Shown in pieces: positions 21,575-33,868 of a stretch of DNA of 34,071 bases (position 1 is the first letter of the stretch; each line of letters starts with the position of its first letter). The stretch lies in NCBI GenBank assembly GCA_031273195.1, contig JAISSJ010000177.1:1-34071 (forward strand). The letters run 5' to 3'. Source of the DNA: Candidatus Fibrimonas sp. GTDB lineage: Bacteria > Fibrobacterota > Fibrobacteria > Fibrobacterales > Fibrobacteraceae. The notes beneath the pieces are model-generated. The model was given only the letters and a program-made list of their open reading frames with translations, did no database searches and was not told the origin of the DNA. The position numbers and the translations under genes are program-made.

Positions 21575-23467
21575 TTAAAATTGCATATGCCCAATCCCAA
21601 TGCAAATAGAAAAATACCGTGCATCGCGACCCTTAATTTGAGGCATATGATATTGCCCTTCGAGAAAAAGTATAACATAAACTAATCCTGTTCCGGCAGA
21701 TAATACAGGTGCCCAACCCCTCGGCCCTGAAATTCCATCGCCACTCTTCGTTTTAAAGCTATAATTTCCATAATAGCCCAAGCCGGCACCTCCCGACAAA
21801 TACCAAGACAAGTTTTTGGAACTCACCGGATATAAACTTGCGAAAGCACCAATCTTAAACAAACCTCCAGGATTAGGAGACCTATCGATGTCGGGATGTA
21901 TTCTTTTGAACACATCATCGTCAGTAAAAATGAAGCCAAGATCCATACTTAGCCCCAAGCGGATAAAATCAGCACCCCCGTAAAAGAATTCACTGCCTAA
22001 GGAATAGAAAATGCCTCCTCCTGAATGGGTAGAATCAATAGAGTTCATCATAATTAGTGCACCAGGAATAGGAAAGACTATAAAAGGAAACCAATGCCAA
22101 GAGGTTCGATCCGCCTCTATTCTCGCTTTTCTAGCCGCTTCTTCCTTCGCTTCCATATTTTTTGCTTGCTGCCGCTGCCGCTCCAGCTGCTCCTGCTGTG
22201 CTCTCCGTTCCTCTGCTTCTCTCCGCCGCTCCGCTTCCTGCCGCTCCCGTTCCATGCGTTGCTCCCTCGTCTCATGCACAACATATTCCACTTTGCCATT
22301 ATGTTTCAATTCAACATCTACCCTTTCCCTGCTTCTCCCAATCTCTATCTTGGCACACAGAGGAACCGAGCCGCTGAATGGCGTTTCCCCGACTTGCCTG
22401 CCATTCACAAAAACAGGCTCGCTCGCAGGCTCTCCGTTCCGCTCCGCCCTCAAAACCAAACCGCCTTTCTTCAATGATATGTTCCTGGCTATATCAAAAA
22501 CTTCACGCTTGCCCTTATTTATACCCACCTTAAAACCTATATTTTCATAACATTCGTGACTGAGCTTAACCTCATAACTGCCGGGGAAAAGCCTTATTTC
22601 GCCCAAAGAGTAAGATTTATCGCTTATTGACAAATTCCATTGCCTGTTTGTGCCTATGCCGTCCGAGTAAGCGGGATTTATTTCCAAAACCCCGAAATTC
22701 GGTTTCAACGCTATCGCTATGTTTTGGTTGTTCTGTTTTATGGAAACGGTTGTGTCTGCTGTTTCGTATTGCTCCAACCTTGCGATTATGCGAACACTGC
22801 CTTCGGGAAACTCGGTTTTGCAAGGCGTTTTGTTGCATCTGTCGTCAGGCAAGCCGTTAAAACTCAAAGCGGCTCCTTGCGGCTCGGAGCTTATGTTTGC
22901 CAGATAACGCTTTTCATCGTCAAATTCATAATCAACCGCTCTTTCCAAATCTCTTATGCCGCCGGGAACAGGAGGCAAAACAGCTTTTCCCCGTGAAGCA
23001 GCGCCGGGTATTTTCATAAAGCCATCGGGAAGTTTTTTCTCCATAATGGCACGTAAACCATTGATATCTTTTGTGTCGTCGGTAAACTTGTCAATAAGCC
23101 CGGAAGTGCTCACTTTGTACAACTCAAAATCTATTGTCAAATTAGAGCCAAATTTCCCAAAACGGCATTGCGCTACATAATCCACCATCGCCTTTCTTCC
23201 CAACTCCACAATGCACGAACTTTCTTTGCATTCTTTGACATAACTGTCGAATCCGCCCAAACGCTTGATTACAACCTCTTGCGGAAAAACCTCAAAGCTG
23301 CTTTGCGACAAATTGTTAACAGCTATTTCCTGAGCCTTGCTTGTGAGAAATTCCAATTCGTCTTTGCTGAGAATTCCATCGGAGGGCAACACGGCCACAG
23401 TTTGCTTGGCAGCAAAAATCGCCTGAACGCAGACAGCTATGATAAGCAAGAAAAAATTTATTCGCAT
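21575..23467 (-). CDS. PEGA-domain envelope protein with coiled coil and C-terminal barrel-like domain
   Basis: A 630-residue protein. ATG 23467 is used because it has GGAG 6 nt upstream and starts a signal peptide (RINFFLLIIAVCVQAIFAAK); the longer open frame only reads back through intergenic repeat A. The N-terminal part (about 20-165) resembles TolB/FlgT-type domains (QTVAVLPSDGILSKDEL). PEGA-like units follow (GAALSFNGLPDDRCNKTPCKT; GGLVLRAERNGE...VFVNGRQVGETPFSG). Residues about 395-454 are an Arg/Glu/Gln coiled coil. Residues 455-630 look like short amphipathic strands with GLGYYGNYSF and an aromatic C-terminus, so an outer-membrane domain is possible. Last gene of the surface-protein locus. 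Confidence 0.8.
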   Translation of the reverse strand: MRINFFLLIIAVCVQAIFAAKQTVAVLPSDGILSKDELEFLTSKAQEIAVNNLSQSSFEVFPQEVVIKRLGGFDSYVKECKESSCIVELGRKAMVDYVAQCRFGKFGSNLTIDFELYKVSTSGLIDKFTDDTKDINGLRAIMEKKLPDGFMKIPGAASRGKAVLPPVPGGIRDLERAVDYEFDDEKRYLANISSEPQGAALSFNGLPDDRCNKTPCKTEFPEGSVRIIARLEQYETADTTVSIKQNNQNIAIALKPNFGVLEINPAYSDGIGTNRQWNLSISDKSYSLGEIRLFPGSYEVKLSHECYENIGFKVGINKGKREVFDIARNISLKKGGLVLRAERNGEPASEPVFVNGRQVGETPFSGSVPLCAKIEIGRSRERVDVELKHNGKVEYVVHETREQRMERERQEAERRREAEERRAQQEQLERQRQQAKNMEAKEEAARKARIEADRTSWHWFPFIVFPIPGALIMMNSIDSTHSGGGIFYSLGSEFFYGGADFIRLGLSMDLGFIFTDDDVFKRIHPDIDRSPNPGGLFKIGAFASLYPVSSKNLSWYLSGGAGLGYYGNYSFKTKSGDGISGPRGWAPVLSAGTGLVYVILFLEGQYHMPQIKGRDARYFSICIGIGHMQF

Positions 23468-23501
23468 TTCGGGCTCCATTCTTTGATTTCCTTTTCCCAT
23501 T

Positions 23502-23567
23502 TTCCCCACAAGTTCACCTTTGCCAAACCCTTGGGGAAAAATCAAGGTCTGGGAGGTTTGCACCACT
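23502..23567 (-). repeat. Intergenic leader repeat, copy A (5' of PEGA gene)
   Basis: Most diverged of five copies. The stem CCAGA-CCTTG / CAAGG-G-TTTGG is kept by a G-T wobble, and the TTTTCCCC/GGGGAAAA pairing is kept, but the upstream hairpin (GYACC/GGTGC) is lost and the Shine-Dalgarno lies farther away. Confidence 0.85.
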
Positions 23568-23587
23568 AACCGCCAATAAAAAACGCC

Positions 23588-25054
23588 TTATAGCGTAGTG
23601 GCGGAAACAGGGTCTGATAGTTGTCCATCCCTAGCTTTCACCTTGTAATAGAATGTCGTAGCGGTTGCCAGATTACGGCTAGTATACGATAAAGCACTAC
23701 CAGCGTAGCCAAGCTCTGTATAAGGTCCTGAGGAACTTTCCGCTATATAAACGTAGTACCCGGAGGCGAAGGTTACAGCATTCCAACTGATAGTGATACT
23801 GTTTGACGAAACCGCCTCCGCAGTTACACTGGTAGGAGCACGCAGAAGCACGGTTGCGTTAACGTAACTCGATTGATCTCCCTCCAAAGTATTATTACGC
23901 ACTGATACTTTATAATAGTAGTTAGCGTTTGACGCTAGTTCTGTGTCGGTATATGAGTTTGACGTTGAAGTTCCAATTTCGGCGTAAGTGCCGGAATAAC
24001 TTTCGCTCCTGTAAATACGGTAAGCCGTGGCGTTCGCAAAATCATTCCAAGTGATAGTTATACTGCTCGATGTAAGGGACTCCGCTTTTACGCCGGAAGG
24101 AGCAGTCAGTAGCGTAGTGGTGGAAACAGAGTCTGATAGTTGCCCATTTGCAGCTTTCACCTTGTAATAGAATGTCGTGGCGGTTGCCAGATTACTGTTA
24201 GTATACGATAAGCTACTAGTGCCGTTAACAATCCGTGTATAAAGTCCTGAGGAACTTTCCGCTCTATAAACTTCGTAAGAGGAGGCGCTAGTTACGGCGT
24301 TCCAACTGATAGTGATACTGTTTGATGAAGCTGCCTTTGCAGTTACGTTGGTAGGAGCATGCAGAAGCACGGTTGCGGAAACGGAACTAGATCCATCTCC
24401 CTCCAAAGTATTATTACGCACTGACACTATATAATAGTATCTAGTGTTTGGCGCTAGTTCTGTGTCGGTATATGAGTTTGACGTTGAAGTTCCAATTTCG
24501 GCGTAAGTGCCGGAAGAACTTTCGCTCCTGTAAATACGGTAAGCCGTAGCGTTCGCAAAATCATTCCAGGTGATAGTTATACTGCTCGATGTAAGGGACT
24601 CCGCTTTTACGCCGGAAGGAGCAGTCAGTAGCGTAGTGGCGGAAACTGGGTCTGATAGTTCTCCATTATTAGCTTTTACCTTGTAATAGAATGTCGTAGC
24701 GGTTGCCAGATTACGGCTAGTATACGATAAAGCACTACCAGCGTAGCCAAGCTCTGTATAAGGTCCTGAAGAACTTTCCGCTATATAAACGTAGTACCCA
24801 GAAGCACCAGTTACGGCGTTCCAACTGATAGTGATACTGTTTGACGAAACCGCCTCCGCAGTTACGTTGGTAGGAACGTTTTTGTTACCGCTTCCACTGC
24901 TATTGTCGCCCCCACTGCTATTACCGCCTCCACCATTACTACTGCTGGATATACCATTGCCATCTTCTTCCCATTCAACCGAGCAGGAAAGGGCCAAAGC
25001 CAAGGCAAGCGAAATGCTTGCCGCCAATGCGAATTTTGAGACTGTTTTGTTCAT
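23588..25054 (-). CDS. Lipoprotein with five fibronectin type III repeats
   Basis: A 488-residue protein. Lipoprotein signal (ALALALSC, C24), a Gly/Ser/Asn linker (about 34-58), then five Fn3 domains in the order A1-B1-A2-B2-A3 (61-144, 145-232, 233-316, 317-404, 405-488). Type A starts PTNVTAEA and contains SITISWNAVT; type B starts PSGVKAES and contains SITITWNDFANATAYRIYRSES. The final domain ends exactly at the stop, with no catalytic domain. Such arrays serve as spacers or adhesive stalks on cell surfaces. AGGAG 5-6 nt before the ATG follows repeat B. Confidence 0.88.
   Translation of the reverse strand: MNKTVSKFALAASISLALALALSCSVEWEEDGNGISSSSNGGGGNSSGGDNSSGSGNKNVPTNVTAEAVSSNSITISWNAVTGASGYYVYIAESSSGPYTELGYAGSALSYTSRNLATATTFYYKVKANNGELSDPVSATTLLTAPSGVKAESLTSSSITITWNDFANATAYRIYRSESSSGTYAEIGTSTSNSYTDTELAPNTRYYYIVSVRNNTLEGDGSSSVSATVLLHAPTNVTAKAASSNSITISWNAVTSASSYEVYRAESSSGLYTRIVNGTSSLSYTNSNLATATTFYYKVKAANGQLSDSVSTTTLLTAPSGVKAESLTSSSITITWNDFANATAYRIYRSESYSGTYAEIGTSTSNSYTDTELASNANYYYKVSVRNNTLEGDQSSYVNATVLLRAPTSVTAEAVSSNSITISWNAVTFASGYYVYIAESSSGPYTELGYAGSALSYTSRNLATATTFYYKVKARDGQLSDPVSATTL
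23591..24874 (-). repeat. Higher-order 516-bp tandem repeat encoding Fn3 pairs
   Basis: Alternating units of 252 bp (type A) and 264 bp (type B): A1 24874-24623, B1 24622-24359, A2 24358-24107, B2 24106-23843, A3 23842-23591. The lengths sum exactly to the region. A1 and A3 are closer to each other than either is to A2. Confidence 0.85.
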
Positions 25055-25066
25055 AAAAACTCCTAT

Positions 25067-25140
25067 TTCCCCGTCAGTTCACCCTTGCCAAACCCTTGGG
25101 GAAAAAATCAAGGCTTGGCTGGTTTGCACCGTTGTGGTGC
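25067..25140 (-). repeat. Intergenic leader repeat, copy B (5' of Fn3 lipoprotein)
   Basis: Starts on the minus strand with hairpin GCACC-acaac-GGTGC, then the GCCAA/TTGGC and CCTTG/CAAGG stem, then GGGGAAA directly next to the AGGAG of the Fn3 gene. Confidence 0.9.
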
Positions 25141-25156
25141 GACTTGTTCATAAAAC

Positions 25157-26719
25157 TCACTCCCTAAAGTCAAACGGAATAGTTGGCGTGGTATTGCCGC
25201 TCTTTATGGCTTTCCACTTCCAAGTGCCTACCATATTCTTAACAGCGTTGTCAAATCCGGCATAACTTGTTGTGCTGGACACTATGGAAATGTCAATAAT
25301 GTCGCCACCTGGAGCAATGGTAAATTTGAGCGTAACTTTGCCGCTAAAACCAGGTTTTAACTTTAAATACTTATTGTAGATGTTCCTCAAACCGGGCATA
25401 CGGGCATTAACAACAGCCATTATTTCCGCTTTGGAACGAGCCCCGTCACCGGAACCCATATCTATATCTCTTGCGCTTGGGGCCTTAAGAGAGCCTTTCG
25501 CTTTTGAGCCTATGCCACCTGCACTGCCACCCATCAAACCGCCCATCATATCGCCGATACCGCCTGAACCGCCTTCTGCGTAGCCATCGTTAAGGCCATC
25601 TGTGGCAGAACTGCGACGACCGCCAAATTCGGATTTACCGCTGTATTCTCCCTCGCCTTTCAGGCAGCGAACGCTTAATTTGTTTGATTTGCTGTAACTA
25701 ATATTCATCATCTCTGTTGAATTGTATAGCATACCGGCACCAACAATGCTCTGATAATTTCTCGTGGCCGTCCACCAATATCCGGATATATTTTTACTTG
25801 AACTCGGCAAAGCAGAAAAGCCATAGCTATCCGAATTGCATTTGCTTGACTTTGTCTTTCGCCCCCTATCATCAATATCCGTCAATTCACAATTCCACTT
25901 TTCCCATCCGTTTCTCGCTTTGAGCTTCTGCCCGGCAATTTCCGTGCCGCCAGCGGAAGCCGCAAGGGTTTGCCATTCTTCATAGCTCGGCAAATGCCAC
26001 CCGTCAGGACATGCCAGCCTTGCATTTTCCCAGTCATAGAGCCTCCCGTACTTTTGGCAATTTGCCGGCTCATTATCAGAGCAAGCACCGATATCTTCAT
26101 CTTCACCTGCGTAATCCAAATTCTTCGCCATCCAAGTTTGCTCACCTATTTTCACGGTTTTATATGTTTTGCCATCCCTTGGGTCGGTAAATGTATTAGC
26201 TGAGGCGGGCTCGTCTTCGTAATTTTCTACCCTTTCCAAATTTCCATTTCTGTCAAAATATTTCCATTCTCCGTGTTTATTGCCGTTTTTGTAATTTCCC
26301 ACACAATACAAATATTTTTTATTGTCTTCAAAATCATATCGAAACTCTTTCCATTCTCCATGCAATTTGCCATCTTCATAATTTGTCGTAATGTTTACTT
26401 CATCGTCTCTCTTTTCCCATTTTCCGTGCAACTTGCCTTCCTTGTAATTTTCTATGTATGTTTCACCTTCGTTAATCGTTTCCATTTTTCCATGCCACTT
26501 GCCATTTTTTATATTTCCTATATAATAAAAGAGGCCACACCCTCCACAATCTTCATTGGAATATTTAACCGTCCCTGTGTACGGTTTATTCTGATAGAAA
26601 TAAACATCATCTATTTTCTGCAATTTATCTATATTAATTGGTTCACTGGAGTACACCACAGGTTGCAAAGCAATCGCAATTACTACCAGCACATTGAGAA
26701 TTCTCGTTCTCTTTTTCAT
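25157..26719 (-). CDS. Exported MORN/YwqK-like + FISUMP + AgmX/TonB-like protein
   Basis: A 520-residue protein. Signal peptide (1-25), MORN/YwqK-type repeats (about 60-170: NGKWHGKME, EGKLHGKWE, DGKLHGEWKE, NGNKHGEWKYFDRNGN), a FISUMP domain (about 179-354), a Gly-rich and Ser-rich linker (365-430), and a C-terminal AgmX/TonB-like domain (about 435-520: PGFSGKVTLKFTIAPGGDIIDISIVSSTT...FDNAVKNMVGTWKWK). The start at 26719 has AAGGAG and a signal peptide; the longer frame reads through repeat C. AgmX/TonB-type C-termini are periplasmic in motility and transport proteins. Three module types in one protein is unusual. Role unknown. Confidence 0.88.
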   Translation of the reverse strand: MKKRTRILNVLVVIAIALQPVVYSSEPINIDKLQKIDDVYFYQNKPYTGTVKYSNEDCGGCGLFYYIGNIKNGKWHGKMETINEGETYIENYKEGKLHGKWEKRDDEVNITTNYEDGKLHGEWKEFRYDFEDNKKYLYCVGNYKNGNKHGEWKYFDRNGNLERVENYEDEPASANTFTDPRDGKTYKTVKIGEQTWMAKNLDYAGEDEDIGACSDNEPANCQKYGRLYDWENARLACPDGWHLPSYEEWQTLAASAGGTEIAGQKLKARNGWEKWNCELTDIDDRGRKTKSSKCNSDSYGFSALPSSSKNISGYWWTATRNYQSIVGAGMLYNSTEMMNISYSKSNKLSVRCLKGEGEYSGKSEFGGRRSSATDGLNDGYAEGGSGGIGDMMGGLMGGSAGGIGSKAKGSLKAPSARDIDMGSGDGARSKAEIMAVVNARMPGLRNIYNKYLKLKPGFSGKVTLKFTIAPGGDIIDISIVSSTTSYAGFDNAVKNMVGTWKWKAIKSGNTTPTIPFDFRE

Positions 26720-26733
26720 GTACAAACTCCTTT

Positions 26734-26806
26734 TTCCCCGCCAGTTCACCCTTGCCAAACCCTTGGGGAAAAATCAAGGCTTGGCTGGTTTGCACCACTG
26801 TGGTAC
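26734..26806 (-). repeat. Intergenic leader repeat, copy C (5' of MORN-FISUMP gene)
   Basis: Hairpin GTACC-acagt-GGTGC (one G-T wobble), the GCCAA/TTGGC stem, and the longest leader pairing of the five (TTTTTCCCC with GGGGAAAAA), which runs straight into GGAG. Confidence 0.9.
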
Positions 26807-26823
26807 GATTTGGTTCCTTTACC

Positions 26824-27486
26824 CTATAATAAGTTAAGCGGGTCGTCACTTTTTCCCCGATTATTTTTGCTAGATAACAAGTTAAGCGGGTCACTCTTTC
26901 CCAGAGTATTCTCGCTAGATGATAAGTTAAGCAGGTTACTTGCTTCCTGAGTATCCTTGCTAGATGATAATAACTTTTCTAGGATATCCCCGCCTTCTTC
27001 ATGTTTTGCACAATGTAGAGTAAAACCAGCCAATCCTGCGTATATGAGCAAAATAAACCAGTTATTTCCGGTTAACTTAAAAGCTCCTTCGTAATAACCT
27101 GAGAGCTTAATATGTGCAGCTATTAAGAATATGATTTTAACAACTAAACCCGCTATGGAAACATTACGCAATACAATGAAAGACTTGTTCGTAAATGCGA
27201 ATACTAACAAAACTGCAGGGATAATTATTAATGCGAAAACAAGCGGATAACCGTCATCCTTATTTTTACTAACTTTATTAGCTGCATTAAATAATTCCCC
27301 TTTACCTGTAGCGATTTCCCAACCAGAAGCCGTTAGGCTATCATCTTTGGAACATTTCGCTAAAGGACAGGCAAAGAATAATACGCACAATGCAAATGCG
27401 CATATCTTGACAATATGCCTAAAATTATTTTTTTCTGTTGTCGGATTCATGCCCAACCGCTTCAGCAATTCCTCTTCCGTGTTCAT
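26824..27486 (-). CDS. Multi-pass membrane protein with C-terminal LNLL repeats
   Basis: A 220-residue protein. About four hydrophobic segments (about 24-42, 83-100, 106-126, 140-157) with a short periplasmic or cytosolic loop between the first two. The C-terminal tail (about 177-220) is a degenerate repeat of about 16-19 residues: ASNLLNLSSSENTLGKSDP, LNLLSSKNNRGKSDDP, LNLL, with matching DNA repeats (TAAGTTAAGCGGGTC and variants). The N-terminus MNTEEELLKRLGMNP looks cytosolic. No family is recognised. It is the only gene in the 21.5-33.8 kb locus without a signal peptide, and it is more AT-rich than its neighbours. GGAG sits just before the ATG, after repeat D. Confidence 0.75.
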   Translation of the reverse strand: MNTEEELLKRLGMNPTTEKNNFRHIVKICAFALCVLFFACPLAKCSKDDSLTASGWEIATGKGELFNAANKVSKNKDDGYPLVFALIIIPAVLLVFAFTNKSFIVLRNVSIAGLVVKIIFLIAAHIKLSGYYEGAFKLTGNNWFILLIYAGLAGFTLHCAKHEEGGDILEKLLSSSKDTQEASNLLNLSSSENTLGKSDPLNLLSSKNNRGKSDDPLNLL

Positions 27487-27504
27487 ATCTCCAATTACTC
27501 CAAT

Positions 27505-27577
27505 TTCCCCGCCAGTTCACCCTCGCCAAACCCTTGGGGAAAAATCAAGGCTTGGCAGGTTTGCACCACTGCGGTGC
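27505..27577 (-). repeat. Intergenic leader repeat, copy D (5' of membrane protein gene)
   Basis: Hairpin GCACC-gcagt-GGTGC (fully Watson-Crick), the GCCAA/CCTTG stem, then GGGGAAA followed at once by TTGGAG. It starts 3 nt after the upstream stop codon. Confidence 0.9.
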
Positions 27578-27580
27578 GAT

Positions 27581-29374
27581 TTACTCTTTCACGCAACGAA
27601 CATAAGCCAAGCCAGATTTATCATCGTTGTCCCAACGTAATCTACCACGGTTAAGATCCATGTTTGTGGTATATGCACGAGAAGCACTGCTTTCTGTGGC
27701 ACTCCACCAGTAGCCAAAAGAACCAATGCTGTTAAATCTACCGCTGGAATAGCCTTGACCACCCGGCAAAGCAGCAAAACCATAATCATCCGTGCCATTT
27801 CCGTCATTGCTCCATCCGTTTTTTGCCCTTAATTTTATGCCGGCAACGTTCTCACCGCCAGCAGCCGTCATTAACTCATTCCACTCCTTATAGCTCGGCA
27901 AATGCCAACCGCCCGGACAAACTCCCTGCACTTTTTCATCGTTACCGTCAAACTTCTTCCAGTTATACTCTCTGTCAAGACCCATTGCCTCGCTCCAGTC
28001 GTAGAGACGGCCATACTTGTCGCAATTTTCCGGATTGCGAATTTGTTCCCTCGGTCTATCTCCATAGCACAAACCGAGATAACCATCATCAACATAGTTC
28101 AAATTCTGTGCCATCCAGGTTTGAGTGCCGATTTTAATTGTTTTGTATGCTTTATTATCACGAGAATCAGTAAAGCTGCCCGATGCAGCCGCTATTGCTC
28201 TAAGCCGCCCCTCGTCTATTTTTTCTATCAGCCTTTCATACATATATTCATACATATCTTCATCTTGATAATTCAAAGAAAAACCGATTGCATTTTGCAT
28301 AGTTGCTGACAAATATTCATTAATATCCTTTCTAGTTGTTTCATACAAAGGCGGAACGATGAAATTGCCAGTTTTATTTATAAAGCCAGTTTTGTCCTCA
28401 GTATTAACTGCCATAGCATAATCGCCGCTAAACGGAAAGGCAAGAAGAAATTGCGGATTTATTATGATTTGTCCTTTTCTGTCTATGTAAGCCCATTTTT
28501 CGCCCATTCGCACTGCGGCAAGTTTGCTTCCGCTAAATCCTGTTGCATTATCAAATTGCGGATTTATGATTATCTCGCCTTTTTTATTAACCCAACCCCA
28601 TTTTTTTCCAACCTTGGCTAAAAACAATCCATCGCAGTCATATACTAATGATTCATACTGCGGATTTACTACAAAACTCCCTTCTTTGTCAATAGCACCC
28701 CATTTAGTGCCGCTCAAAATAGTTGCCATTCCGTCATTGAAAAACGAAATATCATCAAATTGTGCATTTATCACAATTTCACCGCTTTTGTTTCTGTAAC
28801 CAAATTTTTCAGTCTTTTTATCTTGAAAGCGATATAATCCGTCTTTCATAAAGGGGACTGACTTTTCTTCGGCTGCTGTGGCAGCTACAAGTTCCCCTTT
28901 TTTATCTATAAACATCGTTAATCCATGTTGCCCTTGGCTATAGACATTTATTCCTGCTATACCGCCGTTAAAAGGATAAGCGGCGGTTAAGGAGTCTATT
29001 TGCAGGAGCGTTTTGCCTTTTTTATCAATGAGCATAGGGGGTTGGTTTTCCAATTGCACCCAAGCCACGCCTTCGCTGAAGTTCTGTGCTTTGCTATAAA
29101 CCGGAGCTATTATAAACTTGCCTCTTTCGTCTATATAACCCCATTTTCCTTCTTCGCCGCTAGTTTGGACAAGTGCTAATTCGTCTCTGAACATAAGTGC
29201 TTGCTTGAACTGTGGGTTGATCACGATTTTTCCATTCTTAGAAATATCAATGTACTGATATTCCTCATTTGAACCCTTAATGGGAACTATTGAAAAATTC
29301 GCTTCTGTTTTATTCCCGCAAGCAAAGCAGAAAATTGCTGCCGCTGCGATGAATGTTAATTTTACCTTTTTCAT
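27581..29374 (-). CDS. WG-repeat + FISUMP lipoprotein
   Basis: A 597-residue protein. Lipobox FCFAC (C19) after KKVKLTFIAAAAI. Residues about 30-380 hold some nine WG (KWG) repeats of about 40 residues, e.g. KWGYIDERGKFIIAPVYSKAQNFSEG and KWGWVNKKGEIIINPQFDNATGFSG. A FISUMP domain fills about 400-597 (IGTQTWMAQNLNY, CDKYGRLYDWSEAMGLD, GGWHLPSYKEW, GFAALPGGQG, YWWSATESS, YVRCVKE). It is a close paralogue of the protein at 31109-32812 over its whole length. A surface-exposed binding role is plausible but unproven. GGAGA precedes the ATG; no leader repeat is present, the gap to the next gene being only 26 nt. Confidence 0.9.
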   Translation of the reverse strand: MKKVKLTFIAAAAIFCFACGNKTEANFSIVPIKGSNEEYQYIDISKNGKIVINPQFKQALMFRDELALVQTSGEEGKWGYIDERGKFIIAPVYSKAQNFSEGVAWVQLENQPPMLIDKKGKTLLQIDSLTAAYPFNGGIAGINVYSQGQHGLTMFIDKKGELVAATAAEEKSVPFMKDGLYRFQDKKTEKFGYRNKSGEIVINAQFDDISFFNDGMATILSGTKWGAIDKEGSFVVNPQYESLVYDCDGLFLAKVGKKWGWVNKKGEIIINPQFDNATGFSGSKLAAVRMGEKWAYIDRKGQIIINPQFLLAFPFSGDYAMAVNTEDKTGFINKTGNFIVPPLYETTRKDINEYLSATMQNAIGFSLNYQDEDMYEYMYERLIEKIDEGRLRAIAAASGSFTDSRDNKAYKTIKIGTQTWMAQNLNYVDDGYLGLCYGDRPREQIRNPENCDKYGRLYDWSEAMGLDREYNWKKFDGNDEKVQGVCPGGWHLPSYKEWNELMTAAGGENVAGIKLRAKNGWSNDGNGTDDYGFAALPGGQGYSSGRFNSIGSFGYWWSATESSASRAYTTNMDLNRGRLRWDNDDKSGLAYVRCVKE

Positions 29375-29400
29375 GGTTATCTCTCCTATTTTGAGTTTGT

Positions 29401-31095
29401 TTAATCGTCCCAGCCACCTTTATCATCGCTAGATAAATTTACCCCTGATTCGATTGTAAATTCTTTACGTTTATTATCATTGATATATACAGCATGGCCC
29501 CTGCGTACCAATACGCCGTCAATATCCCTAACTATATTGCCATTGCTCTGGTCATCTTTATATCCGGTAATCGTTCCACCTGTTTTAGTAAAAGCTTCAC
29601 GCCAGTTATCACTAACATATACTCCACCGCCATTTTCGTTGGCGGTATTGCCTGTGATAGCACCGCTACGCATGGTAAATCTATAATTCAAGTGTACCCC
29701 ACCGCCGCGACTGGCAGTATTATCGAATATATTTCCACCAGTCATGGTAAAAGTTCCTCTTTCCACATACACTCCACCACCATTTTTAGATGCAACGTTA
29801 CCAGAGATAATTCCATTGCTCATGTTGAAGGTTCCATGGTACACACTCACACCGCCACCCTCAGATGCTTTATTACCGGATATAGTTCCGCCACTCATTG
29901 TAAAAGTTCCTCTTACATCCACACCACCACCCCGAAAATTTGCATTTCTGCCATTATCAGAAATGGTACCGCCAGTCATTTCAAAGGTTCCCGATTCCAC
30001 ATACACTCCGCCACCTTCACCACCTGCATTGCCGGTAATAGTTGCTCCGGTATTCATTTTAAGCACTCCGCCTTTTACGTCAATCACGTTACCCTTGTTA
30101 CCGTTGTGACCATGAAGGGTAATGTTGTTATCCAAAATAAATGTAACATTAGATGTTACAGTAAACATTGTGCCATTGGTTGAAAGCCTGATAGTTCGGT
30201 TTTCGTAATCGCCTCTTAGAACTATGGTAATGTTGATTGCTCCTTTGTACTCAAATTTATACGGAGCGATATTTTCATTGGCGTTTACCTCAATTATATA
30301 GGTATTATGGCTTTCTGCGTTTCTTTCCAGCCAAGCCAACTTTCTGGCAAGGGTACTCCCCTGTAGAATAGTACCTTCGTTTGTAACCTCAGTGGTAAGC
30401 GGATTAGCAGCTTCCATTGCATTAACTGCTTTTTTTTCAGCTTCTGCTGTTGCCATAGCAGTTTGTTTGGCAGCAAGTTTATCTGGCAATTTTCCCTCGC
30501 CTTTCAGGCAGCGTACGCTTAGTTTATTTGATTTGCTGTGATTAGTACTCATAATCTCTATTGAATTGTTTAGCATATAGGAACTAACAGCGCCCGACCA
30601 ATTTTCCGTGGCTGTCCACCAAACACCTAATGTATTTTTACTTGAACTTGGCAGAGCAGAAAAACCATAGTTATCCGAATTGCATTTGCTCAACTTTTTC
30701 GTTCGCCCCCTGTCATCTGTCGCTGTCCATTCGCAATCCCATTTTTCCCACCCGTTTCTAGCTTTGAGCTTCTGACCAGCAGTTTCCTTACCGCCAGCGG
30801 AAGCCGCAAGGGTTTGCCATTCCTCCAAACTCGGCAAATGCCAACCGTCAGGGCAGGCCAGCATCGCATTTTCCCAGTCATAGAGCCTCCCATACTTTGG
30901 GCAATTTTTCGGGTCATCATCAGGGCAAGCACCGATGTCTTCATCTTCACCTGCGTAATTCAAATTCTCCGCCATCCATGTTTGGGTGCCAATTTTCACA
31001 ATTTTATACTTTTTGCCATCTCTTGGATCGTTAAAAGTGTTTTGTGCAAAGGTTGCAACGCAGAGCAGCAATAATAATGCTATGAGGCTTTTCAT
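29401..31095 (-). CDS. FISUMP + polymorphic-membrane-protein-like beta-helix protein
   Basis: A 564-residue protein. Signal peptide (KSLIALLLLLCVATFAQ), FISUMP domain at about 22-205, an Ala/Lys-rich helical linker (about 205-250), then a right-handed beta-helix-like region (about 265-545) of repeats such as GGGVYVESGTFEMTGGTISDN, GGGVSVYHGTFNMSNGIISGN and GGGVYVERGTFTMTGGNIFDN. These are like Pmp-type repeats of chlamydial and treponemal surface proteins. The FISUMP part is very close to that of the 25157 gene (NYAGEDEDIGAC, SAGG-x-E-x-AGQKLKARNGWEKW), yet the flanking domains differ completely, which points to domain shuffling. AAGGAG precedes the ATG. Confidence 0.87.
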   Translation of the reverse strand: MKSLIALLLLLCVATFAQNTFNDPRDGKKYKIVKIGTQTWMAENLNYAGEDEDIGACPDDDPKNCPKYGRLYDWENAMLACPDGWHLPSLEEWQTLAASAGGKETAGQKLKARNGWEKWDCEWTATDDRGRTKKLSKCNSDNYGFSALPSSSKNTLGVWWTATENWSGAVSSYMLNNSIEIMSTNHSKSNKLSVRCLKGEGKLPDKLAAKQTAMATAEAEKKAVNAMEAANPLTTEVTNEGTILQGSTLARKLAWLERNAESHNTYIIEVNANENIAPYKFEYKGAINITIVLRGDYENRTIRLSTNGTMFTVTSNVTFILDNNITLHGHNGNKGNVIDVKGGVLKMNTGATITGNAGGEGGGVYVESGTFEMTGGTISDNGRNANFRGGGVDVRGTFTMSGGTISGNKASEGGGVSVYHGTFNMSNGIISGNVASKNGGGVYVERGTFTMTGGNIFDNTASRGGGVHLNYRFTMRSGAITGNTANENGGGVYVSDNWREAFTKTGGTITGYKDDQSNGNIVRDIDGVLVRRGHAVYINDNKRKEFTIESGVNLSSDDKGGWDD

Positions 31096-31108
31096 TTTCT
31101 TTTTCTCC

Positions 31109-32812
31109 TTATTTTAAATCCTGAACGCAACGTATTGAATACATAAACGTCTTGCTGAGGTTAGTTTCATATAAGAAATCCATATCATGACTCAGGCGGC
31201 GGCGGCGCGCATTGTATACGTTTTGTTCCGTAGAAGTCCACCAATCGCCTTCCGTACCAATTTCACTGAAACCTTTATCATATCTGCCGCCGGGTAAAGC
31301 CGTAAAACCATAGTCGTCTATGCCATTGCCGTTTTTATCCCAACCGCTTGCCGCCTTCAATTGTTTGCCAGCCGTTGTAAAACCGACAAATTCCTTGAGA
31401 ATTTGCCATTCCTCACTGCTCGGCAAATGCCATCCTTCCGGGCAAGCTCCCTGCACTTTCTCTTCACTGTTGCCAAACTGTTTGCGGTTATAGGTTCTAT
31501 CCAAACCCATTGCCTCGCTCCAATCGTAAAGGCGGCCGTATTTTTCGCAATTCTCCGGGTTGAAAATTTGCTTTCTCGGCTCATCTCCATAGCATAAACC
31601 TAAATAGCCATCCTCGCCACGATAGTTCAAATTCTGCGCCATCCATGTTTGCTTGCCTATTTTTATTGTCTTGTACTCACTGCTGTCCCTTAGGTCAACA
31701 AATGAGCCTCTGGCATATATCATCCTCTTTTCCTTTAATTTTTCATAGCTGGAAAACCGATCATCCTCAATAGAGAAAGCATTTTCATATAAAGGCGGGA
31801 CAATAAATTCGCCTTTATTGTTTATAAAGCCAATCTTGCCGTCATTGCTCGCCACCTTAGCCCAATTTCCGTCAAATGAGTAAGCTACGCTAAACTGGGG
31901 ATTGATTTTTATTTCACCCTTGCGGTCTATGTATGCCCACTTGTTGCCCATCTTAACTGCTGCCAGTTTGTTCCCTGCAAATTCCGCCAAGCTGTCATAT
32001 TGCGGATTTATGATGATTTCACTCTTTTTATTCACCCAGCCATATTTTTTCCCGGCCTGAGCAGTGAACAACCCATCGCAGTCATAATGCAAACTATCAT
32101 ATTGCGGGTTTATTATGAAATTTCCGCCTATGTCAATTACTCCCCACTTGTTGCCAACTTTGACTGCCGCCATTTCATCAGCAAAAGGCGATGCTTCTTC
32201 AAACTGCTGATTAATCACAGTTTCGCCATTCATGTTTTTATAGCCCCATTTATCTATTGCGGCATTTTTGAAAGCGTAAAAGCCATTGCTGAATACGCCA
32301 ATTTTTTCTCCTTTCGTCACTGCTGCTGCACTGGTTCCGTTTTTGTCTATGAATATTCCTGTTTCCGTGCCTCTGCCGTAAACCTCTAGGGCAGCGATTC
32401 CTTCTTTGAATGGAGTAGCTGCTATCAGCGAATCTATTTGCAGAATAACTTTACCCTTTTTGTCTATGAGCATGGGTGGCTGCCCTTCCATCTGTACCCA
32501 AGCAACTTCTTCGCTAAAACTCTGTGCTTTGCTATAAACCGGAGCTATTATGAATTTGCCTTTATTGTCTATGTAACCCCATTTTCCTTCTTGGCCGCTT
32601 GCTTTCACCAAAGCCAAGCCGTCTTTAAATATATGTGCTTCGCCAAACTGCGGATTGATTACAATTCTTCCCTTTTTGGAAAGGTCAATGTATTGATATT
32701 CGCCGTTTGCCCCCTTGATGGGAACTATGGAAAAATCTTCCCCTGTTTTGCTTTCGCAAGCGAAAAGCAGAGCAGCGACTGCGGCAATGAATGCTAGTTT
32801 GCCCTTTTTCAT
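31109..32812 (-). CDS. WG-repeat + FISUMP lipoprotein (paralogue)
   Basis: A 567-residue protein. Lipobox ALLFAC (C19). WG repeats at about 30-345 (e.g. KWGVIDIGGNFIINPQYDSLHYDCDG, KYGWVNKKSEIIINPQYDS), then FISUMP at about 370-567 (IGKQTWMAQNLNY, CEKYGRLYDWSEAMGLD, GWHLPSSEEWQ, GFTALPGGR, DWWTSTEQN, SIRCVQD). It matches the 27581-29374 protein nearly end to end and differs mostly in an internal segment before FISUMP that is shorter here. It lies directly downstream of leader repeat E, 13 nt upstream of the FISUMP/beta-helix gene. Confidence 0.9.
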   Translation of the reverse strand: MKKGKLAFIAAVAALLFACESKTGEDFSIVPIKGANGEYQYIDLSKKGRIVINPQFGEAHIFKDGLALVKASGQEGKWGYIDNKGKFIIAPVYSKAQSFSEEVAWVQMEGQPPMLIDKKGKVILQIDSLIAATPFKEGIAALEVYGRGTETGIFIDKNGTSAAAVTKGEKIGVFSNGFYAFKNAAIDKWGYKNMNGETVINQQFEEASPFADEMAAVKVGNKWGVIDIGGNFIINPQYDSLHYDCDGLFTAQAGKKYGWVNKKSEIIINPQYDSLAEFAGNKLAAVKMGNKWAYIDRKGEIKINPQFSVAYSFDGNWAKVASNDGKIGFINNKGEFIVPPLYENAFSIEDDRFSSYEKLKEKRMIYARGSFVDLRDSSEYKTIKIGKQTWMAQNLNYRGEDGYLGLCYGDEPRKQIFNPENCEKYGRLYDWSEAMGLDRTYNRKQFGNSEEKVQGACPEGWHLPSSEEWQILKEFVGFTTAGKQLKAASGWDKNGNGIDDYGFTALPGGRYDKGFSEIGTEGDWWTSTEQNVYNARRRRLSHDMDFLYETNLSKTFMYSIRCVQDLK

Positions 32813-32830
32813 GTTTTGAACTCATCTCCT

Positions 32831-32903
32831 TTCCCCGCAAGTTCACCCTTGCCAAACCTTTGGGGAAAAATCAAGGCTTGGCTGGTTTGCACCACTGTGG
32901 TAC
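32831..32903 (-). repeat. Intergenic leader repeat, copy E (5' of WG-FISUMP gene)
   Basis: Hairpin GTACC-acagt-GGTGC; the stem keeps GCCAA/TTGGC with CCTT/AAGG; GGGGAAA runs directly into GGAG. It starts 9 nt after the upstream stop codon. Confidence 0.9.
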
Positions 32904-32912
32904 ATTTTTGTC

Positions 32913-33809
32913 TTAGTCCTGCACACAACGCACACTAAACAGGTAAGACTTGAAGAGGTTACTTGAACGGGCGTACTCGCCGTTATAATAAATGTAACCA
33001 TAGCAGGAACTATCGACAGTATCATCTTCATCGGCACACCACCAATAACTACGGTCGCTAATGGCGTGGAAGATGATACCATCTGGAAAATCTGAAAAGA
33101 AACCACCACGACCGCTTGACAGAGCCGAAAAGCCGTAGTTGTCTGTGCCATTGCCGTCGCTGTTGTTTTCGCTGTTGTAATTCCAGCTTGTTGCCGCTTT
33201 TAAATACCTGCCCGCTGAATTATCCCTATCATCACCTTCTCCACCATTATCAATATCCACAAAACGGAACAATTCATCCCAATCGTCACGGCTCGGTATA
33301 TGCCAACCTGCAGGACAAATACCTTGATGATGAGGTGAGTTTATTTGACTTGAGCAAAAATCCGAATTACAGCTTGACGGAAGGTTCATCGCTGTTGACC
33401 AATCGTAAAGACGGCCATATTTGTCGCAATTGGCTTGCACTTCAGCGGGCGATAATGTTTTTGTAATGGGATTATTATCTTCGTCATAACCTATTAAAAC
33501 TTCACCACCTTCGCCGTAGCACTTGCTTCCTGCAACGGCGTAATTCAAATTCTCCGCCATCCAAGTTTGTGTGCCGATTTCAACGATTCTATATGGTTTT
33601 CCGCCATCCCCACCGCCACCACCGGACGATGAACTGATACCCAACGTGCTACTGGATAAACCGCCGCCGGAGGAATTGGAAACACTGCCTTGAGAGCCTT
33701 CGCTACTTGAGGAAGAACCGCCACCGCCGTCATCGTCTGACGAGCAGGAAAGGGTGAGTACCATAGCCGTAACCGCAGCCGCCAATGAAATAAACTTAAC
33801 GTTCTTCAT
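32913..33809 (-). CDS. FISUMP lipoprotein with Ser/Gly-rich linker
   Basis: A 298-residue protein and first gene of the locus. ATG 33809 has AGGAGG 6 nt upstream and begins a lipoprotein signal (AMVLTLSC, C22); the longer frame to 33866 is unsupported. A low-complexity linker of Ser, Gly and Asp (about 23-70) leads into a FISUMP domain (about 75-298: IGTQTWMAENLNY, CDKYGRLYDWSTAM, GWHIPSRDDWDELF, GFSALSSGRGG, YWWCADEDD, SVRCVQD). It carries an insertion (GEVLIGYDEDNNPITKTLSP) between the first two motifs. Function unknown. Confidence 0.88.
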   Translation of the reverse strand: MKNVKFISLAAAVTAMVLTLSCSSDDDGGGGSSSSSEGSQGSVSNSSGGGLSSSTLGISSSSGGGGGDGGKPYRIVEIGTQTWMAENLNYAVAGSKCYGEGGEVLIGYDEDNNPITKTLSPAEVQANCDKYGRLYDWSTAMNLPSSCNSDFCSSQINSPHHQGICPAGWHIPSRDDWDELFRFVDIDNGGEGDDRDNSAGRYLKAATSWNYNSENNSDGNGTDNYGFSALSSGRGGFFSDFPDGIIFHAISDRSYWWCADEDDTVDSSCYGYIYYNGEYARSSNLFKSYLFSVRCVQD

Positions 33810-33868
33810 GAGAACCTCCTGTTGTTGAATTTTTCCCTGCACTGGTGCGGGGTGATAGAACAGCATTG

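Follow-up and report, generated by a model that had tools for sequence, protein, structure and literature searches.

A covarying pseudoknot leader at intercistronic junctions of Candidatus Fibrimonas, probably a new element of translation control

The gene array and its five element copies

The window analyzed here, meaning the whole stretch of DNA under study, is a 34,071-nucleotide (nt) contig of Candidatus Fibrimonas sp. (JAISSJ010000177.1, GenBank assembly GCA_031273195.1), in which five copies of one short intergenic element punctuate an array of genes on the minus strand. Profile searches identified Fn3, PEGA, and WG-repeat FISUMP proteins in this array; the MORN label of a further, MORN-type FISUMP gene is a name assumed, unchecked, from a first-pass annotation made from sequence alone. 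We describe the element as a leader that lies between cistrons in a fixed orientation, shows covariation, and folds into a pseudoknot, and we consider it, with better than even confidence, to be a new structured leader that controls translation at these junctions. In gene direction, the window copies align over ~84 nt and open with an A-rich lead, followed by a hairpin, P1 (GYACC-N5-GGTGC), a conserved AAACC, a stem, P2 (GCCAARCC-TTG ... CAA-GGTTTGGC), with a T/C loop, and a 3' part in which GGGGAAA runs into GGAG and then ATG. To recover further copies, we used two covariance models: R1, built from 14 copies of the window's own genome, and R2, a broader model used for searches beyond the genus. 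The five copies, together with the parts of copy C, are as follows:

23495..23578, minus strand: element copy A, P1 missing; R1 77 bits; 5' of the PEGA gene (about 21578-23479)
25060..25144, minus strand: element copy B; R1 98.1 bits and alignment; 5' of the Fn3-repeat gene 23591-25054
26727..26810, minus strand: element copy C; R1 104.8 bits and alignment; 5' of the MORN-FISUMP-TonB_C gene 25160-26719
26792..26806, minus strand: hairpin P1 of copy C, GTACC-ACAGT-GGTGC; from sequence and family-wide P1 covariation
26754..26785, minus strand: stem P2 of copy C including its loop; from sequence and family-wide P2 covariation
26765..26773, minus strand: pseudoknot 5' strand of copy C, the loop TTTTTCCCC; from sequence and family pseudoknot tests
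26731..26739, minus strand: pseudoknot 3' strand of copy C, GGGGAAAAA; from sequence and family pseudoknot tests
26727..26730, minus strand: Shine-Dalgarno GGAG of copy C; from sequence, adjoining the 3' end of the pseudoknot strand, with the ATG at 26719
27498..27581, minus strand: element copy D; R1 101.5 bits and alignment; 5' of the membrane-protein gene 26827-27486 and 3' of the WG-FISUMP gene 27584-29374
32824..32907, minus strand: element copy E; R1 101.6 bits and alignment; 5' of the WG-FISUMP gene 31112-32812 and 3' of the FISUMP gene 32916-33866

The first-pass annotation had placed all five copies on the minus strand, each between one gene's stop codon and the next Shine-Dalgarno site, and both the sequence and the alignment bear this out. 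It had described a repeat of 66-74 base pairs (bp); the repeat itself stands, whereas its length is about 84 nt by the covariance model. Its reading of the parts likewise holds: P1 is present in copies B-E and absent from A, P2 is retained in A with altered bases, and the loop TTTTTCCC(C) complements GGGGAAA(A) in 5/5 copies. The two genes of the array that lack a copy follow their upstream neighbors by 13 and 26 nt, as it had stated, with open reading frame (ORF) ends at 31109/31095 and 29401/29374.

The five copies score covariance-model E values of 1.7e-17 to 1e-24, which are not independent because the same copies helped to build the model. A plain BLAST search of the whole genome recovered 15 places at E < 1e-5, and an R1 search of the same genome, which is 60.6% complete, recovered 25 copies at E < 0.01; together, these matches place the window repeat above chance. 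An intrinsic promoter scan counted promoter-like sites in the window array at the level of shuffled sequence, with no excess. At 23583-23596, a terminator-like hairpin (ACGCTATAAGGCGT) with a T-run lies directly 3' of the Fn3 gene and occupies the P1 position in copy A. A long G-run at the contig end (34038-34062) is a possible assembly artefact, as is a long C-run near the start of another contig (C22, at the start of L033).

Covariation of stems P1 and P2

Across an alignment of 141 copies, 90.8% of stem cells pair, and two-sided changes occur in all 16 pairs; when the partner is slid by one column, pairing falls to about 53%, and the covariation of P1 and P2 exceeds every shuffle and slide. 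As this alignment was fitted to the model, the test was repeated on a structure-free MAFFT alignment of 148 non-redundant copies, in which the top three covarying column pairs comprise one P2 pair and two P1 pairs. The covariation that the first-pass annotation had proposed to look for is therefore present in both stems, in model-fitted and structure-free alignments alike. P1 has 5 bp, with loops of mostly 5-6 nt of the AYRRY type, and stem pairing is equally good irrespective of the upstream gene. In both stems, G-U changes outnumber A-C changes, which argues that the mRNA-sense strand is the one that folds. A DNA operator or palindrome was ruled out, as the P1 stem positions covary and the P1 loop positions that a palindrome would pair do not. 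An extension of P2 by ACC/GGT is conserved, with covariation not above expectation, and was omitted from the model.

Evidence for a pseudoknot

The H-type pseudoknot suggested by the first-pass annotation draws support from matched run lengths and from rewired helices. Within copies, the length of the loop C-run (CCC or CCCC) follows that of the strand G-run (GGG or GGGG), with counts of 50/13/14/36 (p=4.8e-8 pooled); stratified by genome, the matching persists (p=2.2e-5, odds ratio 7.5). Several copies carry rewired helices, such as TCCTCGC with GCGAGGA in genome G006 and TTCTCCGCT with AGTGGAGAG in G009. Helix scores of the native pairs exceed those of permuted pairs, with only 2/2000 permutations as good. 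Loop 3 measures 12-17 nt in most copies and is often A-rich, and the pseudoknot 3' strand ends a median of 2 nt 5' of the Shine-Dalgarno; this loop length and strand position make a plausible H-type geometry. The first-pass annotation had supposed that such pairing could mask or expose the ribosome binding site; the Shine-Dalgarno lies outside the pseudoknot strand, alongside it, in 112/127 analyzable copies and overlaps it in the other 15/127.

Placement at start codons

By mechanical calling of upstream and downstream genes, 124 of 160 copies have a Shine-Dalgarno, an ATG, and an open frame within 36 nt; for random sites, the share is 3.8% on the same strand and 0.6% on the opposite one. No copy has an antisense start. 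The spacing between the element and the downstream ATG varies little (median 8 nt, interquartile range [IQR] 7-11), whereas that to an upstream FISUMP stop varies widely (median 24 nt, IQR 7-45). Homologous downstream genes keep the element despite different upstream neighbors (L029/L034 and L081/L104), which indicates that it travels with the downstream start. Among the copies with readable upstream sequence, 120/150 overlap the stop codon of an ORF that runs in the same direction or follow it within 60 nt, making co-transcription likely.

These data also bear on the alternative already raised in the first-pass annotation, that of a REP-like (repetitive extragenic palindromic) repeat. REP and BIME-type (bacterial interspersed mosaic element) repeats are multi-copy and extragenic and contain palindromic parts, all of which applies to the element, and a functionless dispersed repeat of this kind, or one akin to a miniature inverted-repeat transposable element (MITE), that had merely spread between genes would fit the many copies per genome, all extragenic and some degenerate (L045, L046). 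The pattern by which a plain dispersed repeat would be known, with copies in both orientations and far from starts and without covariation, did not appear. Instead, the element keeps a single orientation and a fixed place 5' of the Shine-Dalgarno, shows compensatory changes in P1, P2, and the pseudoknot, and in distant genera retains the fold on another sequence; we regard this explanation as the least probable of those weighed here. The earlier description of an oriented, structured leader immediately 5' of Shine-Dalgarno sites is what the placement and covariation support.

Distribution and novelty of the family

In covariance-model searches, each of the 12 genomes available for Candidatus Fibrimonas, a genus whose members we take to inhabit termite guts, proved to carry copies. 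The highest count was 53 copies at E up to 0.5, or 50 at E up to 0.01, in a single genome (G011). Beyond the genus, R2 detected one copy each in G017 and G018, which represent two further genera of the same family, one in G062, from a different family, and three in G096; the copies in distant genera share the fold and differ in sequence. No copies were found in the large sister genus g2 (probably Fibrobacter) at the thresholds used. The genomes are metagenome-assembled genomes (MAGs), incomplete and fragmented at repeats, and copies from one genome are not independent of one another. At L045:886-969, a degenerate copy lies beside a FISUMP gene fragment, possibly a remnant of gene rearrangement.

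Against Rfam (release 15), the window had no match at the gathering threshold, copies C-D had no relevant match at E up to 10, and four further loci had none at E up to 1. A literature search, with most subscription papers outside its reach, returned no paper naming this RNA or Fibrimonas. A viral origin was considered, as the exact DNA pattern matches viral contigs, and was rejected, as the covariance model has no match in any of them. The element is an RNA family absent from Rfam, with a copy number unusual for a bacterial leader.

FISUMP genes and diversity-generating retroelements

In 85/160 copies, a FISUMP domain forms the end of the preceding gene, and such genes are of the type diversified by diversity-generating retroelements (DGRs), a context that the first-pass annotation missed. 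FISUMP domains number about 110-130 per genome. Reverse transcriptase (RT) loci in the genus carry an Avd gene, with a template repeat just 5' of the RT; the repeat reads LPGGNGNSDGSFNNVGNNGNWWSASENNSNNAYNRNMNYNNDNANYNNNNKNNLYSVRCLQD and corresponds to a FISUMP C-terminus rich in AAC codons. Compared with these templates, the FISUMP ends upstream of elements differ at 48% of adenines, against 20% of the remaining bases; such a concentration at template adenines is the mark of diversification by a DGR. In 21/82 tested FISUMP ends, at most 15% of non-adenine sites differ from a template, and one or two RTs may serve an unusually large FISUMP target family. Two genes of the window belong to this context:

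27584..29374, minus strand: WG-FISUMP gene 5' of copy D; PF09603 E=2e-29; 3' end resembles a DGR variable repeat, with mismatches to the template at 36/65 adenines and 33/110 other bases
32916..33866, minus strand: FISUMP gene 5' of copy E; PF09603 E=2e-31; 3' end resembles a DGR variable repeat, with mismatches to the template at 30/62 adenines and 29/100 other bases

The element might, then, be part of the DGR machinery itself, a structure 3' of the variable repeat by which FISUMP genes would be recognized as targets of homing, with the next gene incidental. The frequent position behind FISUMP ends that bear the adenine signature favors such a role, as does the G062 copy, which in another family follows an FGE-sulfatase-type end (assigned by sequence pattern, with no profile search); DGRs are known to target both FISUMP and FGE-sulfatase (PMC4159848). 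Nevertheless, the downstream start, and not the variable repeat, sets the position of the element. The element is missing from the variable repeat-avd junction of the DGR loci examined, and the distributions of RT and element across the phylum do not coincide, with RTs in element-free genomes and the reverse (among incomplete MAGs). Known DGR target hairpins or cruciforms have a 7-10 bp GC-rich stem and a 4-nt GRNA loop and lie 4-34 bp after the repeat (Guo et al. 2011, PMC3240598). The element resembles them in often lying 3' of a DGR-type variable repeat; it differs in its 5-bp P1, its mostly 5-6 nt AYRRY-type loops, its variable distance (0-100 nt), and the pseudoknot and start codon that follow, and other hairpins between the stop and P1 make better candidates. 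A role in homing is accordingly improbable, and given the empty junction and the lack of tracking, we rejected the DGR as a cause of the element and treat it as context. In that capacity, the element points to those operons of uncultured termite-gut bacteria that carry hypervariable surface genes of the DGR type, and it offers a handle on the genes co-expressed with them.

The other hairpins just mentioned are GC-rich, carry GAA/GTA/GGA-type loops, and lie between the FISUMP stop and P1 in many copies (e.g. L030:320-380, L098, L085); their stems show compensatory changes (CCGCTAGCGAAGCAAGCGG, GCCCATAGCGAAGCAATGGGC), and in placement and appearance they resemble DGR target hairpins (PMC3240598). 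The DGR loci of the genus run in the order Avd, template repeat coding for a FISUMP C-terminus with AAC runs, and RT (L158:1074-1260 in G001; also L156, L157, L160, and L155). At L158:1270-1320, between template repeat and RT, lies a perfect palindrome, GTAGGGGCGTTGCATGCAACGCCCCTAC, flanked by GGGGAAGC and GGCTTCCCC.

Mode of action and comparison with known systems

Judged from its sequence and position, the element would act on translation initiation of the next gene, within a polycistronic transcript that most often would carry a DGR-type FISUMP gene just upstream. In repZ, too, an upstream reading frame lies just before a pseudoknot, and no sequence relation between repZ and the element is known. 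Translation of repZ depends on the formation of this pseudoknot upstream of the ribosome binding site (PMC8383071). The element likewise places its pseudoknot strand just 5' of the Shine-Dalgarno (median gap 2 nt, overlap in 15/127 copies); it differs in that repZ is one plasmid gene under antisense RNA control, whereas the element precedes dozens of unrelated chromosomal genes. In most copies, the Shine-Dalgarno is adjacent to the pseudoknot and not part of it, and for this reason we lean, tentatively and by analogy, toward a mode like that of repZ: the pseudoknot, when closed, would help ribosomes to initiate independently on the downstream cistron, and melting or competition would lower such initiation. 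A second mode, for which we hold out somewhat less expectation, is repression, with a shared ligand, protein, or small RNA closing the pseudoknot; the remaining share falls to other possible RNA roles, such as processing or stability.

Several observations pull against a leader for translation control: 36/160 copies failed the strict start test, a pure leader role does not explain the strong enrichment of FISUMP genes upstream, and when the pseudoknot is tested by duplex energy, the support is weak (95/2000 permutations as good).

The preQ1 and SAM-II riboswitches are small translational riboswitches with an H-type pseudoknot at the Shine-Dalgarno and an A-rich third loop, features that the element shares. 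Conserved unpaired positions combined with such a pseudoknot are typical of this class, and in the element AACC before P2 and an A in loop 3 are unpaired and highly conserved. A riboswitch, or a switch that responds to a protein, is accordingly the rival we take most seriously, although we put it at well below even chances; the pseudoknot would then close upon a common ligand or regulator and keep the 30S subunit off the adjoining Shine-Dalgarno, so that dozens of genes respond together. The element has an additional 5' hairpin (P1), its Shine-Dalgarno lies mostly beside the pseudoknot, it has no Rfam match, and the downstream genes share no pathway. For translation control by either route, the ~160 natural variants and the ready model provide material on how a pseudoknot beside the Shine-Dalgarno affects initiation.

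Downstream genes

The downstream genes fall into 83 clusters, 64 of them singletons. Pfam and NCBIfam assign 27/130 to FISUMP, and others include zinc ribbons, 8xMP membrane proteins, DUF2971, and TPR; a common function was sought and rejected, as these databases show none beyond FISUMP and some zinc ribbons. By a simple hydrophobicity rule, a heuristic for signal peptides, 65/135 lack a signal peptide or early membrane segment. The regulon of surface proteins that the first-pass annotation had envisaged is not upheld, since about half of the downstream genes genus-wide lack such features and the set is very diverse.

One-strand arrays of unrelated, often orphan genes parted by a repeated element recall integrons, and the diversity of the clusters would suit an attC-like recombination site, folded as single-stranded DNA, at which unrelated genes are swapped behind FISUMP genes. 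attC sites are folded and cut on the bottom strand, whereas the excess of G-U over A-C changes lies on the mRNA-sense strand. RYYYAAC/GTTRRRY boxes were not seen on inspection by eye only, with no integrase search made, and the pseudoknot and the nearness to the Shine-Dalgarno suit translation better, leaving a cassette boundary very improbable.

PADLOC matches to TIR, SIR2, restriction, and DUF4297 models are scattered among the downstream genes. A far-reaching reading, which we consider a long shot, is a genus-wide network in which one pseudoknot module would couple the translation of many unrelated second cistrons, some of them immune-effector-like (TIR, SIR2, restriction, and Lamassu-type matches), to operons with DGR-diversified FISUMP surface receptors. 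If true, a diversified receptor and effector set would stand under a common RNA switch.

The second cistrons also include recurring orphan families alongside PADLOC matches, for example at L088:1101-2600, L090:1112-1717, and L147:1129-1740.

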